This document shows positions 1,591-7,685 of a stretch of DNA of 64,000 nucleotides, piece after piece. The DNA is taken from positions 2,554,572 to 2,618,571 of the forward strand of contig CP030759.1 of assembly GCA_003290465.1 (NCBI GenBank), read 5' to 3'. The notes beneath the pieces are model-generated. The model was given only the letters and a program-made list of their open reading frames with translations, was not told the DNA's origin and did not search any database. The first letter of the stretch is position 1. Every line of letters starts with the position of its first letter. A program made the position numbers and the translations under genes. Source of the stretch: Candidatus Sumerlaea chitinivorans. GTDB taxonomy: Bacteria; Sumerlaeota; Sumerlaeia; Sumerlaeales; Sumerlaeaceae.

Positions 1591-2748
1591 TCACTGATTC
1601 TCGCGCAAAAATTTCTCGAGCTCGGACTCTTGTTTACGAAGGAATTTGTCCTCGCGCTCCTCGAGTTCTCGGCGCCGCTTTTCCTCCGCCACCATTTGTT
1701 CGCCCGAAATGGATTTCGGATGGATTTGAAACCCCGGCTGGCTGATGAGCGTCTTCAGCCGCGTCACAAGGTCCTCCGCCGAAAACGGTTTTGCCAGGAA
1801 GTCTGTGGCACCCAAACGCAGCGCATACTCACGATCCCGCGGCGAGCTCTTGCCTGAAATCATGATGATCGGTGTGCGCTTGAAGCGGCAGTTGCGCCGC
1901 AGCGATTGGCAAAGTTGGTAGCCGCTCATCTTGGGCAACATCGCGTCGAGCACGATAATGTCGGGTTCATAGAGCGTGATCTTCTCAACGGCCTGAATTC
2001 CGTCGTTTGCCGTGGCCACCTCAAATTCCCCTTCCAATGCGATGGCGCAAATCGCTGTCAGATCTTCTTCATCGTCTACCACCAGCACCCGCGGGCGCGG
2101 TGGCCGAGGACTCATCGCCCGAGCACGCATCTCCGCTTGTTTTTGCCGCTCTGCTTCTTCGGTCTCGGCGCGCCCCACAACCCGCTTACCCTCGTACCAC
2201 GCCTTTTCCTGCGGTGCCCCTGCACTTTCCTTGGGTTCCGGACTCGGGGCGGCCGTCGGGCCTACGCTCGCAGCCTCCGCATTTGCACGCGCCCGCGCGC
2301 TCGCATACTCCACCGACTCCGCATGCTCCAGATTTTGAATCTCCTCGACCGTGTATTTCTTTCGCTGGTAGGGGAGGTTCTTTTCCTCGAAGAAATGCTG
2401 CACCACCCGAAGTAGCCGCGCAGGATCAAACGGCTTCGTCAGGTAGAGATTCGCCCCCGCCTCGTAGCCCGTCACGATATCCTTCCTGGAACTCAGCGCC
2501 GTCAAAAACAGTACTGGGATTTCCTTCCATCGCGGCTGGCTGCGAATGACCCGGCACGTCTCGAACCCGTCCATAAGCGGCATCATGACATCGAGAATCA
2601 CGAAGTCCGGCTCAACGACATCCAGCTTCTGCGCAGCATCCAGCCCGTCTTGCGCCTCCACCACCTCGTAATGCGGTGCAAGCGTCGCCCGCAGGATGGT
2701 CCGCACGTCCGGCTCGTCGTCCACAATCAGGATTCTTCGTTTTGGCAT
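1591..2748 (-). CDS. Double-receiver response regulator (REC-linker-REC)
   Basis: A 385-residue protein with two CheY-like receiver domains and no obvious output domain. The first REC (about 1-120) has phospho-acceptor D53 in ILDVMMP and K105 in LTKPF. The second (about 218-335) has D268 in VLDAMLP and K320 in AKPF. Both keep the acidic pair near the N-terminus (VDDE). They are joined by an Ala/Pro/Glu-rich linker (about 130-215). The C-terminus (345-385) is a highly charged Glu/Lys/Arg helix, possibly a coiled coil. It is the last gene of a probable minus-strand operon after the helicase and the CxxC protein. The role is inferred to be phospho-relay or protein-protein control. No cognate histidine kinase is adjacent; the nearest in the window is at 54.7 kb. 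Confidence 0.92.
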   Translation of the reverse strand: MPKRRILIVDDEPDVRTILRATLAPHYEVVEAQDGLDAAQKLDVVEPDFVILDVMMPLMDGFETCRVIRSQPRWKEIPVLFLTALSSRKDIVTGYEAGANLYLTKPFDPARLLRVVQHFFEEKNLPYQRKKYTVEEIQNLEHAESVEYASARARANAEAASVGPTAAPSPEPKESAGAPQEKAWYEGKRVVGRAETEEAERQKQAEMRARAMSPRPPRPRVLVVDDEEDLTAICAIALEGEFEVATANDGIQAVEKITLYEPDIIVLDAMLPKMSGYQLCQSLRRNCRFKRTPIIMISGKSSPRDREYALRLGATDFLAKPFSAEDLVTRLKTLISQPGFQIHPKSISGEQMVAEEKRRRELEEREDKFLRKQESELEKFLRENQ

Positions 2749-2834
2749 GTTCGTCGCCCTCGCCTCTCACTCGTATGTATAGGCCAGTGCTGCGCGATCG
2801 TCAGTGCGGCGAGCATGGAGCCCCCTGCTCGTCG

Positions 2835-3137
2835 TCAGTCCAGTTCGTATGGATTCACCGGACGCACGTCCTCACCCGACGCTTCCGCTTCCTTGAGCTT
2901 CTCCTTGAACAGCGCATTCAGCCGATCCTGCTTCGATTTCTGCGCCTCCTGCATCTTCCGGAACTTTTCCTCCGCCACCGTGCCGCGTTCCTTCACTTTC
3001 TTGAACGCATCCTCAAAGCGGTCACCTGTCGAATTCTCGAGGATGGGTCGGCGCTCCTCCACGATCTTCCCCGTGCGTTTCTCCACGATCAGAATCGTTT
3101 TGCAGCACGGACACTTCACTTCGATGAAGTTCTCCAT
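2835..3137 (-). CDS. Small CxxC (half zinc-ribbon) charged protein
   Basis: A 100-residue protein of unknown function. The N-terminus reads MENFIEVKCPCC, a single CxxC knuckle followed by a short beta-like stretch. That is half a zinc ribbon, so metal binding might need a dimer. The rest is strongly charged and predicted helical (Lys/Glu-rich, about residues 40-90). A longer reading frame extends upstream to 3401, but that part overlaps the helicase 3' end and looks like a shadow. I therefore start at the ATG at 3137, 29 bp after the helicase stop. The position between the helicase and the double-receiver regulator suggests co-transcription; a shared job is inference only. Confidence 0.75.
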   Translation of the reverse strand: MENFIEVKCPCCKTILIVEKRTGKIVEERRPILENSTGDRFEDAFKKVKERGTVAEEKFRKMQEAQKSKQDRLNALFKEKLKEAEASGEDVRPVNPYELD

Positions 3138-3166
3138 CTTGTTTCTCTGCCTCCGACACAAGATCC

Positions 3167-6100
3167 TTACAAACGAGCCAGCCGCTCCGCAATTGGATTC
3201 GCAACCTCGCTCGCGGACGTATAACCGGACCCACCCCCAAGCCGAATCGCCTCCGGCGCTAAGTCGAGGTACAGGCCATGGCCGGCAATCGTGCGCAACA
3301 AGCGATTCGCTCGCTCCTCCCCACAGATCGCGCGGAATCGCCGCACCACCGCCGCCTTGTGCGCAAGAATCTGCTGCTGCTCCACCTTTGCGTCGGGCCA
3401 CAGCACTTCGTCCAACTCAGCGTACGGCACCACCCGCCGCGGATTCCGCGCAAGATGCAAGAGCAGCCGATAGGGCAACACGCTCAGGAAAAAGCCCTGC
3501 CCCATAAACCGCACCTGTCCCGGGCTCGATTCGTCCAGCTCCAGCACCACCTCCGCCGAATCTACACGCGCAGCGTCCCCGCCCGTGCCGATTCCTTCCG
3601 CGCGTTTCCCACCCGGCATCGCCACCTGACCCACCTCGCCCCGTCCCTCGGGAAGCGTCTTGAGCACCCGCTGTCCCCCATCTCCTTTCGTCGCCGTGCA
3701 AGCTACCGCTTCATACTCCGGTTTCGCTTCCCCGCAAAGCGCGGATGCAGTCCCATCCTCCCCCCGCACTGCGACGGCTTGCGGTTCTGCGTGCTTGCGC
3801 CCGTTGTGCGTTCCTTCGCCAAATCCAGCGCGAGTAGCTTCCGCCGGCGATACCCCCGCCTTGAGCGCCGCCTCCACCACCTCCGCCATTCTCGCCCCCA
3901 CGAGTCGCGCAAGCGCCCCCCGCTCGCACTGGGCAAGGTCCCCCACCGACTCAAACCCTTCGCGCGCCAACCGCACCAGCACCTGCCGGTTCACTCCTGC
4001 CTCAGCCAACGGGCTCAGCCCACGTGCTTGCGCCGGAAGCCCCCACGTCAGCCGCTCCGCCAAGACATCCACGCCGCTCACCCCATTGCCCACAACGCCG
4101 AGGCAACGCCCAGTGGCTGCAAGCGCGTGCATGAGCCAAGCCATGTGCCCGCCGAGACCCTGAATCAGCCCGCCGTAGACCCCGTACGCCTTCTCAAGCT
4201 CCACCAGCGGTTGCCCGGCGACCCAACCCCACGCAAGGAACGCTTTTTTCAGCGACGCGTGCACGGCCTCGCGCACTCCGCTAGCGCCCCGAAGCAGCCC
4301 TCCCAATACCGTCTCGCTCCCCATTCGAGAGAATTCCCCCAACCCCACCAAGCGCTGATAATAGACTTGCCCCAACATTTCGGCGCGCGTCAGCGGCAGA
4401 AAAAACGCCTCGCTGTCCGGCACCAACGCCGCAATCGCCAACAACTCAAATTCCGTGGGCTCGGCCGAGGTCCGCATCCGTTCACGCCAAAACTCTGCAA
4501 ATTGCACCGCACTCCGCGGCTGGAGCCCGAACATCGCCGCAACCTCCCCCAGTCCGCTCACCGCGATCACCCCGCCCGCTTCCGTCACAAGCCCACTTTC
4601 CGTGAGCTCCCCCATCGCTTCCTCAACTCCGTTTGCGAGCTCTTCCCGCGTCGCGCCATGGACACGCGCACCAAACATCTGCTCCGCAAAGGCACACACC
4701 TCCCCCACCGCCTGCGAAATGCTGCCGATCGGCCGCTGCGAAGCGACGAACTGAAGCGCGTCGAGCACGACGTTTGCGAGCGCACGCTCCAGCCTCGGCG
4801 GTGCCAAAGGCTCACACGCTGCCCCCAGAAAACGCTCCTCCCAGCGGAGCGCCCACGCCGCGTCGAGCGCCGGCACAATCGAGCGCCCAAAACCCGCCGT
4901 CAGACCAAAGCGCCCAGCCCGCCCCCCTTGATTGCGGAAGCGTCGGATGCTAAGAGGCTCGATCGTTGGCTGCACGCCTGCAGGCGCTCCCCCCTCCGCG
5001 ACCATCACCGGCAGCGAAATCACGTTGCGACACGTCAGGTTCACCCCCTGCGCAAGCGTGGAGGTCGCCACCAGCACACGCACCTCGCCCTCGCGAAACG
5101 CCCACTCCACGAGCGTACGGACCCCACGCGGTAGGTCCGCGTTGTGGAACGCCACCCCCGCGGACAAGCACCGGTCGAGAAGCGCAAGCAACTGCGAGGG
5201 CTCATGAAGCCCCACCTCCGCCCGCACCCGCTCGGGCACGGCGGGCAACCCGAGCTCCTCGGCAAAGCGCACCGCCCACACCCGGCTGAGTGCACGCGTC
5301 GGGACGAACACCAACACTTGCTCGCCACGCTCCACCCCTAGAGCGCGCACCACGCGCACCATTCCCTCCCAGAACTCCGCCTCGTCGAACCCCTCGATCG
5401 CACCTCGCCGACCCCGGCCGACCCACGCCTGCGCCTCTGCTCCCCCGCCCGAATCCCCCCGCCAGTTCGCCGGCTCGAAAAGCTGCTCCACGGCCCGCTC
5501 GCCCGTATTCCACACCCGGTAGGCAAACTCCCCCCGCGCCAAATCCAACACCCCCTCGCGCAGCTCCACGGGACGCTCGCGCCACACCAGCCGCTCGCAC
5601 TTTAGCCATTCGCAAAGCCGGTCCGCATCATCCACCGCCGCACTCGTGCACACGAGCTGGGGCGGCCGCTCCCCATGCATAAGCTTGGTCAGCACGAGGT
5701 CCGCCGCCACGGCACGCTCCGCCTCGCCAAGGATCTGCACCTCGTCCACCACCACGCACGCCAATGCCGAGGCCAACGCCGGCGCCGCCACCAAGTGCGC
5801 CCGCAGTTTCTCGTAGATCATCACCGCGAGGTCGAACTGCCCCGTGCAGATCGCGCCGTCATCCCCCGTTCGCTCCCGCGTGGACACCACCACCCGAAAC
5901 CCCATCGGCCCGTATAGCCCCCGCAGCCGCCCGTAGAACTCCTCCGCCAGCGCCTTTGTTGGTACAAGGAACACCGTCCGCCCCCCAAGCGCCGCATGAC
6001 GCATCGCCGCCATCTCGCCCAAAAAAGTTTTTCCCGACGACGTCGGCGCAAACACCGCAAGCGAGCGCCCGTGCAGTAACCCTGTCCGGAGCGCCGCGTG

Positions 6101-6196
6101 CGCCTGAAGTGGGAGGAGCTCCATCATTCCGGCCCGCCGCCACCCCTCGATCACTCGCTCGCTCAGCCCCAACGCAACCAAATGCTCAATTCGCAT
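3167..6196 (-). CDS. Ski2/Hel308-like superfamily 2 helicase with HhH and C-terminal winged helix
   Basis: Predicted ATP-dependent nucleic-acid helicase of 1009 residues. Motif I APTSSGKT lies at about residues 50-57. Motif II is DEVQ (about 151-154), where many Ski2 relatives have DEVH or DEIH. Motif III is CTSAA, motif V is TSTLAQGVNL (about 375) and motif VI is RNQGGRAGRFG (about 420-430). A helix-hairpin-helix-like stretch (FESVGDLAQCERGALARLVG) follows near 745-765. After a low-complexity linker the C-terminus (about 885-980) resembles an OmpR/PhoB winged helix, with PYRLLLHLARNP, VVPYAELDEVLWP and HGLYLDL. An in-frame GTG 15 bp upstream is possible, but GGAGGTG sits 6 bp before the ATG at 6196, which decides the start. 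It heads the operon with the CxxC protein and double-receiver regulator. DNA repair or recombination is likely from family membership; the DNA-binding tail is unusual. Confidence 0.9.
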   Translation of the reverse strand: MRIEHLVALGLSERVIEGWRRAGMMELLPLQAHAALRTGLLHGRSLAVFAPTSSGKTFLGEMAAMRHAALGGRTVFLVPTKALAEEFYGRLRGLYGPMGFRVVVSTRERTGDDGAICTGQFDLAVMIYEKLRAHLVAAPALASALACVVVDEVQILGEAERAVAADLVLTKLMHGERPPQLVCTSAAVDDADRLCEWLKCERLVWRERPVELREGVLDLARGEFAYRVWNTGERAVEQLFEPANWRGDSGGGAEAQAWVGRGRRGAIEGFDEAEFWEGMVRVVRALGVERGEQVLVFVPTRALSRVWAVRFAEELGLPAVPERVRAEVGLHEPSQLLALLDRCLSAGVAFHNADLPRGVRTLVEWAFREGEVRVLVATSTLAQGVNLTCRNVISLPVMVAEGGAPAGVQPTIEPLSIRRFRNQGGRAGRFGLTAGFGRSIVPALDAAWALRWEERFLGAACEPLAPPRLERALANVVLDALQFVASQRPIGSISQAVGEVCAFAEQMFGARVHGATREELANGVEEAMGELTESGLVTEAGGVIAVSGLGEVAAMFGLQPRSAVQFAEFWRERMRTSAEPTEFELLAIAALVPDSEAFFLPLTRAEMLGQVYYQRLVGLGEFSRMGSETVLGGLLRGASGVREAVHASLKKAFLAWGWVAGQPLVELEKAYGVYGGLIQGLGGHMAWLMHALAATGRCLGVVGNGVSGVDVLAERLTWGLPAQARGLSPLAEAGVNRQVLVRLAREGFESVGDLAQCERGALARLVGARMAEVVEAALKAGVSPAEATRAGFGEGTHNGRKHAEPQAVAVRGEDGTASALCGEAKPEYEAVACTATKGDGGQRVLKTLPEGRGEVGQVAMPGGKRAEGIGTGGDAARVDSAEVVLELDESSPGQVRFMGQGFFLSVLPYRLLLHLARNPRRVVPYAELDEVLWPDAKVEQQQILAHKAAVVRRFRAICGEERANRLLRTIAGHGLYLDLAPEAIRLGGGSGYTSASEVANPIAERLARL

Positions 6197-7196
6197 CCCA
6201 CTCACCTCCACCTGTGGCGTTTGTACCTACTTAGCTTTCGCCCCCCGACCGCCTGATCGGGCAGCGCTTTGGACATAAATCGCGTGCTCAACCGCACTCT
6301 TCCCAACGCTTCCTCCCCGTGTCCTCGCCTCGCGCCCGGCCCCTACCACTCTCCTCCTTTCGTGCGATGCGCTCGTACTAAGAAACTCGGCATAATGCGC
6401 CGCCCGCGGAACGACTCGACACCCCACCGCCCCAGCGGCTACGCGACACATCGCGGACCGCAGCTCCTTAGCGGGAGTAGCAACGACACCCTTCCCATCC
6501 GTTTCGCTGCGACCACTCATAGCCGCCTCTCCTGCCTGTCGCTCTAACACGTCTTATACTTCCAGGCGGCGCTCCGCGTCGCCCTGCCCATCGTTTCTGT
6601 GACCCGCTTTGTCACCAAAATGCAGGGTTATAGAAGCCCGTCTCGCCGATTCGCAAGGACTTGTAAGGGTGAGAAGCAGAAAGCCTTGGTGCGCGCGCAC
6701 CGTCGCGCACCCCATGAAGAGTGACCCCACGCCCTCCGCCCCGTGAGCGCATGCATCCCCAAGCGCCCCGCCCACGCCCCACACCCATTATGAATTGCAA
6801 ACCCTTGTTTCCCCAAGCTGCCACCAACCGCAGTGCAACGGCCGCTGCAAATCGAGCGCGGCGAATGGAATGTGTTCCTACCCGCCTGCCCCACGCCGGA
6901 AACAGCCTGCCATTGAGGTCCACCCGGCTCCCACCTGTCGGCGATCCCCAGTTCGTGGCTCACGTTTCTCAGGACCGGGTGGACGCTACCTCCGACGTCG
7001 CTCGGCTGGCGCCCCTCCCCACCCACCCGACACCGGGCTTGAATGCCACGGCCCGCCATGAGTACTTTCACGCGTAACCGACGAGGAGCTCGGACCGCGC
7101 ACGCAGGCGCTCGGCAACGCATACGCACCTCTCAAGCCGCCGACACCGGATGCCCGCAGCCTCCTCGGCCATCTTACACGGAAGGAAGGAACTCGG
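6197..7196. other. 1.0 kb intergenic stretch, no supported gene
   Basis: Divergent spacer between the helicase operon and the GNAT gene, so it should hold both promoters. All six frames contain only Arg/Pro/Ala-rich translations without recognisable motifs. A GC-rich palindrome (ggtgcgcgcgcacc) occurs near 6690. I see no tRNA, terminator or convincing promoter hexamers. Confidence 0.5.
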
Positions 7197-7685
7197 TTGC
7201 CTGAAGTCGCCACTCACCAAGCCGTCGTACGCAAGGCCCGCGTCGAGGACGTGCCCGCCATTCAAAAGGTCATCCACGTGCATGCCGACCGTGGCGAGAT
7301 GCTCCACCGCTCGCTCAACGAGCTTTACGAAACGATGCGCGACTTCACCGTGATCGAGGAGAACGGCCGAATCGTAGCGTGCGCGGCAATCCACATCGTG
7401 TGGGACGACCTCGCCGAGCTCAAAAGCGTGGCTGTGGCGCCCGAGGCGCAGGGCCGTGGCTATGGCAAACTCGTCGTCACCCATTGCCTCGCCGAGGCGC
7501 GCGAGCTCGGCCTCCGGCGCGTCTTCGCGCTCACCTACAAACCCGAGTTCTTTGCCCGCTTTGGGTTCCAGATCATCGACCGCAACATGCTCCCGCACAA
7601 GGTGTGGGGCGAATGCATCAAGTGCCACAAATTCCCCAACTGCAATGAAATCGCCATGATCCTCCACCTCCCGCGTGAGGCGTAG
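7197..7685 (+). CDS. GNAT acetyltransferase, short-form N-acetylglutamate synthase-like
   Basis: A 162-residue acetyl-CoA-dependent N-acetyltransferase of the GNAT fold. The acetyl-CoA pyrophosphate loop is APEAQGRGYGK (81-91), preceded by the beta-4 strand LKSVAV. The C-terminal signature HKVWGECIKCHKFPNCNE (134-151), with three cysteines, is typical of stand-alone N-acetylglutamate synthase-like enzymes that start arginine biosynthesis. The substrate assignment rests on that resemblance only. Translation probably begins at a TTG preceded by GGAAGGAA. No arginine genes are adjacent, so it seems monocistronic. Confidence 0.85.
   Translation: MPEVATHQAVVRKARVEDVPAIQKVIHVHADRGEMLHRSLNELYETMRDFTVIEENGRIVACAAIHIVWDDLAELKSVAVAPEAQGRGYGKLVVTHCLAEARELGLRRVFALTYKPEFFARFGFQIIDRNMLPHKVWGECIKCHKFPNCNEIAMILHLPREA

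Follow-up and report, generated by a model that had tools for sequence, protein, structure and literature searches.

A bacterial Hel308-like helicase carrying a C-terminal OmpR/PhoB-type winged helix in Sumerlaeota and Candidatus Zipacnadia

Gene organization of the locus

The window, i.e. the whole stretch of 64,000 nucleotides that was analyzed, is part of the 3.29-Mb single-contig genome of Candidatus Sumerlaea chitinivorans, a member of the Sumerlaeota (formerly BRC1). Three genes on its reverse strand are separated by gaps of 29 and 86 bp and encode a helicase ending in an OmpR/PhoB-type winged helix (3167..6196, 1009 aa), a CxxC protein without a Pfam family (2835..3137) and a double-receiver protein without an output domain (1591..2748, 385 aa). 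The helicase ORF begins with ATG, while an in-frame GTG further upstream at 6211 is a possible start as well. For the CxxC gene the most likely start is the ATG at 3137, yielding a protein of 100 aa, which corrects the longer GTG-started ORF. The third protein matched PF00072 (1.4e-56) in two stretches corresponding to receiver domain 1 (2401..2733, reverse strand; motifs LDVMMP and TKPF) and receiver domain 2 (1756..2088, reverse strand; motifs LDAMLP and AKPF), as the earlier note had described it.

A stretch of about 1 kb (6212-7196) in which no gene is convincing separates the helicase from a divergent GNAT acetyltransferase-like gene (7197..7685, forward strand), whose assignment was read from the sequence alone. 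A helicase-GNAT gap is likewise present in the genomes G001 and G007, where it spans approximately 0.66-0.7 kb and displays little sequence conservation. A conserved noncoding element in this region was considered and rejected, as mean column identity in the three-genome alignment was only 55%. The sole match in an Rfam scan of the window was a tRNA outside the gap, and a promoter/terminator scan returned counts no higher than in shuffles.

The helicase core resembles Hel308

The N-terminal part of the helicase consists of a RecA1 domain (5582..6118, reverse strand; DEAD, PF00270, 1e-18) and a RecA2 domain (4862..5383, reverse strand; Helicase_C, PF00271, 8e-7). Motifs I, II, III, V and VI of superfamily 2 (SF2) were conserved (APTSSGKT, VDEVQ, TSA, TSTLAQGVNL and NQGGRAGR), with the first two located in RecA1, where they are shared throughout the family, and the last in RecA2. 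With its Walker A, DExH/Q, SAT-like and QxxGRxGR elements distributed over the two RecA domains, the protein belongs to SF2. C-terminal to RecA2, Pfam and Foldseek identified the accessory domains of the Hel308 type (3857..4861, reverse strand), comprising a first winged helix, a ratchet (PF21280, 3.8e-4) and a helix-hairpin-helix, and the winged helix, ratchet and HLH arrangement was apparent from both Foldseek and PF21280; the match to PF14520 had an E-value of 0.09. An AlphaFold2 model built with 48 homologues reached a mean pLDDT of 85, and its top Foldseek matches were archaeal Hel308/Hjm proteins followed by Pol-theta, with a TMt of 0.81-0.88 for Hel308 over approximately 780 columns. 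The ATPase motifs are intact and the domain set is Hel308-like, and in its general mode of action the protein probably resembles Hel308.

Matches in Pfam and NCBIfam assign the protein to the Hel308-like Ski2 helicases. Scores against the NCBIfam models were 250 bits for PRK02362 (cut-off 887) and 151 bits for helicase_Hel308 (cut-off 1200); since these equivalog cut-offs were far from reached, orthology to archaeal Hel308 cannot be claimed. In place of the motif IVa consensus F/YHHAGL, the proteins of Sumerlaeota and Candidatus Zipacnadia contained FHNADL, which lies in RecA2 of the window protein, or close variants thereof, while the archaeal rows of the alignment read FHHAGL, the form reported for Hel308 (PMC10484726). 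Archaeal Hel308/Hjm and the metazoan HELQ/Pol-theta helicase domain have in common with the window helicase the SF2 Ski2-like core, the five-domain fold, the ratchet and helix-hairpin-helix as well as a related motif IVa. In contrast to Hel308/HELQ, the protein described here is bacterial, has only about 22% identity to them, carries FHNADL instead of FHHAGL and extends into an additional C-terminal linker followed by a PhoB-type winged helix.

The C-terminal tail is an OmpR/PhoB-type winged helix

The linker (3557..3850, reverse strand; residues 783-880) is predicted to be disordered (pLDDT about 30) and its length varied from 103 aa in the window protein down to 9 aa in tailed homologues. 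It leads into a domain (3233..3547, reverse strand; residues 884-988) with the layout three strands, helix, short strand, two helices and beta hairpin, whose core attained a pLDDT of about 90-98 in the full-length model. The domain modeled in isolation had a mean pLDDT of 90.5 and its best fold matches in the PDB were OmpR/PhoB/CadC/ToxR-type domains. A profile of the tail family matched ArlR, PhoB and MtrA structures in the PDB at 2.5e-13 to 4e-11 (ArlR 2.5e-13, PhoB 1.7e-11), and PF00486 (Trans_reg_C) matched all 35 of 35 homologous tails at E<=0.01 (best 1.9e-14), although the window tail alone remained just below the gathering score (24.2 versus 26.2, 7.7e-4). Membership in this family by both sequence and fold bore out the proposal of the earlier note that a Ski2/Hel308-like helicase here ends in an OmpR/PhoB winged helix, as did the structure prediction it had suggested. 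Chance similarity was ruled out by the PDB profile together with the PF00486 and fold matches.

The fold and sequence family of the tail are those of the DNA-binding domains of PhoB, ArlR and MtrA as well as of CadC and ToxR, which lack receivers. What sets the tail apart is its fusion to a helicase, the absence of a receiver (Pfam detected none in the helicase protein, and no receiver gene was linked to it across genomes) and its recognition helix (3323..3379, reverse strand; residues 940-958). The signature VE-x-QQ-I-xx-H-[KR], which begins just before this helix, was strongly conserved in Sumerlaeota. In Sumerlaeota, the first of its paired glutamines (Q941) was invariant; Zipacnadia proteins usually have A, S or G at this position and retain the second glutamine. 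At the positions aligned with R193, R201, R203 and R219 of PhoB, which we take to be its DNA-contact arginines, residues other than arginine were found for the most part in Sumerlaeota, and the net charge of the domain was nearly neutral (-4 to +8). Because of these replacements and the near-neutral charge, binding of duplex DNA is not assured and the tail may instead contact a protein partner.

Distribution and origin of the fusion

Of 39 Sumerlaeia genomes searched, window genome included, 29 encoded the helicase core and 28 of these carried the tail, with one such protein per genome; the gene in the single untailed case (G011) runs off the contig end. Tail family bit scores ranged from 80 to 137, compared to 64 for a diverged stand-alone copy in G006 and at most 56 for the tails of response regulators. 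In Candidatus Zipacnadia (Armatimonadota), one such domain per genome was present in 29 of 46 genomes, mostly within frames of about 860-970 aa. Several small frames in this class were considered as stand-alone winged helices and rejected, as the helicase core lies beside the tail (G067, G070 and G071) or the frame is cut by a contig end (G103 and G068) or located near one (G069).

Maximum-likelihood analysis of the helicase part placed the Sumerlaeota proteins in one group (97/92) and those of Zipacnadia in a second (100/98); the unplaced genome RI_285 fell between the two. Under midpoint rooting, both groups clustered to the exclusion of the archaeal and the caspase-linked actinobacterial proteins (96/91), a topology that would fit a single origin of the fusion. 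By sequence and model, the winged helix is real, conserved and fixed to the helicase across both lineages. No description of a helicase fused to a winged helix of the OmpR type was found in the papers searched. Hel308 and HELQ are usually discussed as archaeal and metazoan proteins; the one described here is a bacterial relative, clade-wide and present in two little-studied lineages, with a permanently acquired DNA-binding module of two-component regulators.

Conservation of the gene neighborhood

Since the winged helix and the receivers are each real and are encoded by adjacent genes on the same strand with short gaps, the three genes could specify a phosphorylation-controlled helicase complex, as the earlier note had proposed, in which the double-receiver protein supplies the receivers in trans and the CxxC protein is a further component. 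The co-occurrence on which this proposal depended was not observed, as 0 of the other genomes searched contained the three-gene order. CxxC homologues were detected in 31 genomes of the class, including that of the window, and double-receiver homologues in nearly all, but they were located away from the helicase, which makes the cluster peculiar to the window genome among those searched. In one genome (G032), the gene order differs and the CxxC gene is found upstream of the helicase at a distance of approximately 2 kb. In the nearest relatives (G001 and G007), the divergent GNAT gene still adjoins the helicase, while the CxxC-receiver pair is on a different contig. Presence of the CxxC gene did not significantly follow that of the helicase, as it was encoded by 25 of the 29 genomes with the helicase and 6 of the 10 without it (Fisher p = 0.17), and no gene, receiver genes included, recurred in Sumerlaeota helicase neighborhoods beyond single families. 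The pair also occurs apart from the helicase: CxxC and double-receiver genes were adjacent in genus g2 (L150:7121-8561 and L151:2642-4115, both on the reverse strand), suggesting that they may be a real functional unit of their own. We therefore regard phosphorylation control of the helicase as highly improbable and, as far as can be tested, the receiver and CxxC genes as its chance neighbors.

Relatives in viral collections and in caspase fusions

Related helicases were encoded on two IMG/VR contigs, L166 (3001-5731, forward strand, frame split) and L167 (930-3566, forward strand), which we call phages on the basis of the collection and the few genes considered here. Their C-terminal approximately 110 residues have a degenerate likeness to the winged helix, with an hhalign probability of 85% (E 6.6e-6) in that single comparison, while a search against Pfam gave 0.14 for one tail and no match for the other. 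Within approximately 2 kb downstream of the helicase, L167 encodes a Sak4-like annealing protein and L166 an exonuclease. For these two contigs, the context is in weak but consistent agreement with a role in recombination.

A caspase (Peptidase_C14) was found N-terminal to a related Hel308-like helicase at five actinobacterial loci (L092, L098, L107, L112 and L117), and the same architecture was present near a recombinase gene in the viral collection (L179:2017-5301, forward strand). The aligned caspase-helicase proteins (n=5) all lacked the PhoB-type tail, and the actinobacterial ones differ from the window helicase in their N-terminal caspase as well. Their Ski2-like cores and that of HamB from the Hachiman system are related to the window helicase; HamB acts together with the nuclease HamA (PMC12278908). 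A defense helicase akin to HamB or to the caspase fusions, which number one member near a recombinase gene in a viral collection, would also agree with the PADLOC matches to the HamB and PDC-M23B models. The same models, however, scored an archaeal Hel308-like control protein higher, which renders these matches generic, and the defense assignment drawn from them was dropped. Neither of the two genes downstream of the helicase in the window matched HamA, and no recurrent partner gene was observed beside the Sumerlaeota helicases, which are present clade-wide in one copy per genome and, in one family, have housekeeping neighbors (lgt, rbfA and polyprenyl synthetase). A defense function thus appears quite unlikely to us.

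The winged helix without a helicase and the proposed function of the fusion

In genus g29 of family f13 (G031 and G035), the helicase core has been lost while the winged helix was kept in place. The remaining genes (L061:7720-8268, reverse strand, and L062:4777-5379, forward strand; two species of one genus) encode 182-200 aa, which comprise nothing but a short N-terminal segment and the winged helix itself, and are located directly upstream of rbfA, followed by a polyprenyl synthetase gene, whereas the sister genera have a full helicase at the equivalent site upstream of rbfA. A sister-genus helicase used as query retrieved the winged helix alone from the g29 genomes and the full protein from G021 (4e-142). 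A single loss would suffice to account for the two g29 genomes. Comparison of the two species yielded a winged-helix dN/dS of about 0.19/1.22 = 0.15, with dS near saturation, indicating purifying selection on the domain. At least in g29, the winged helix thus has a role that requires no motor in cis. The diverged copy in G006 (66% complete) was a stand-alone winged helix as well. The N-terminal segment of the two g29 genes was conserved (CILPEGL-ADEA).

Survival as a separate gene directly upstream of rbfA, the strongly conserved recognition-helix signature and the fact that every near structural relative of the tail is a transcription regulator would all suit a sequence-specific, transcription-factor-like module: the protein, or the winged helix by itself where the core was lost, would bind particular promoters, and the helicase would remodel these or act on RNA polymerase there. 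Few basic residues, however, occupy the positions aligned with the PhoB base contacts, the regions upstream of the window gene and of the stand-alone genes contained no convincing PhoB-type box-like repeat, and the neighbor genes vary between families, so that we consider this reading unlikely. We are equally doubtful that a winged helix recognizing specific sequences or RNA polymerase brings the helicase to selected chromosomal sites, loads the Hel308-type motor there and, in one lineage, was freed from the motor to function by itself.

We favor, with reasonable though limited confidence, the view that the protein is a helicase with the Hel308 fold that works on its own in DNA recombination/repair, its C-terminal PhoB-type winged helix serving as a docking module. 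The motor would be expected to translocate on single-stranded DNA in the 3'-5' direction and to act on forks and recombination intermediates, while the winged helix on its flexible linker may hold it on duplex DNA, at a recognized site or structure, or on a protein partner. The Hel308-like model, the PRK02362 match, the conserved SF2 motifs, the confirmed winged helix, the consistent presence of the tail, its retention in g29, the grouping of both lineages in the helicase tree, the disordered and variable linker and the context of the two viral contigs are in favor of this view; the distance from the Hel308 equivalog cut-offs, the replaced contact arginines, the near-neutral charge of the tail and the lack of conserved neighbors in Sumerlaeota that would indicate a pathway argue against it. 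In g29 the two domains are naturally separated, which allows the contribution of the tail to be studied apart from the motor.

Following the winged helix, the short C-terminal ends of the window protein (3167-3232) and its f13 homologues contained a recurring N-x-[VI]-A-like motif, with the variants ANPIAERL in the window, NSVAG/NSIAG in f13 and NFIAREVG in the stand-alone proteins.
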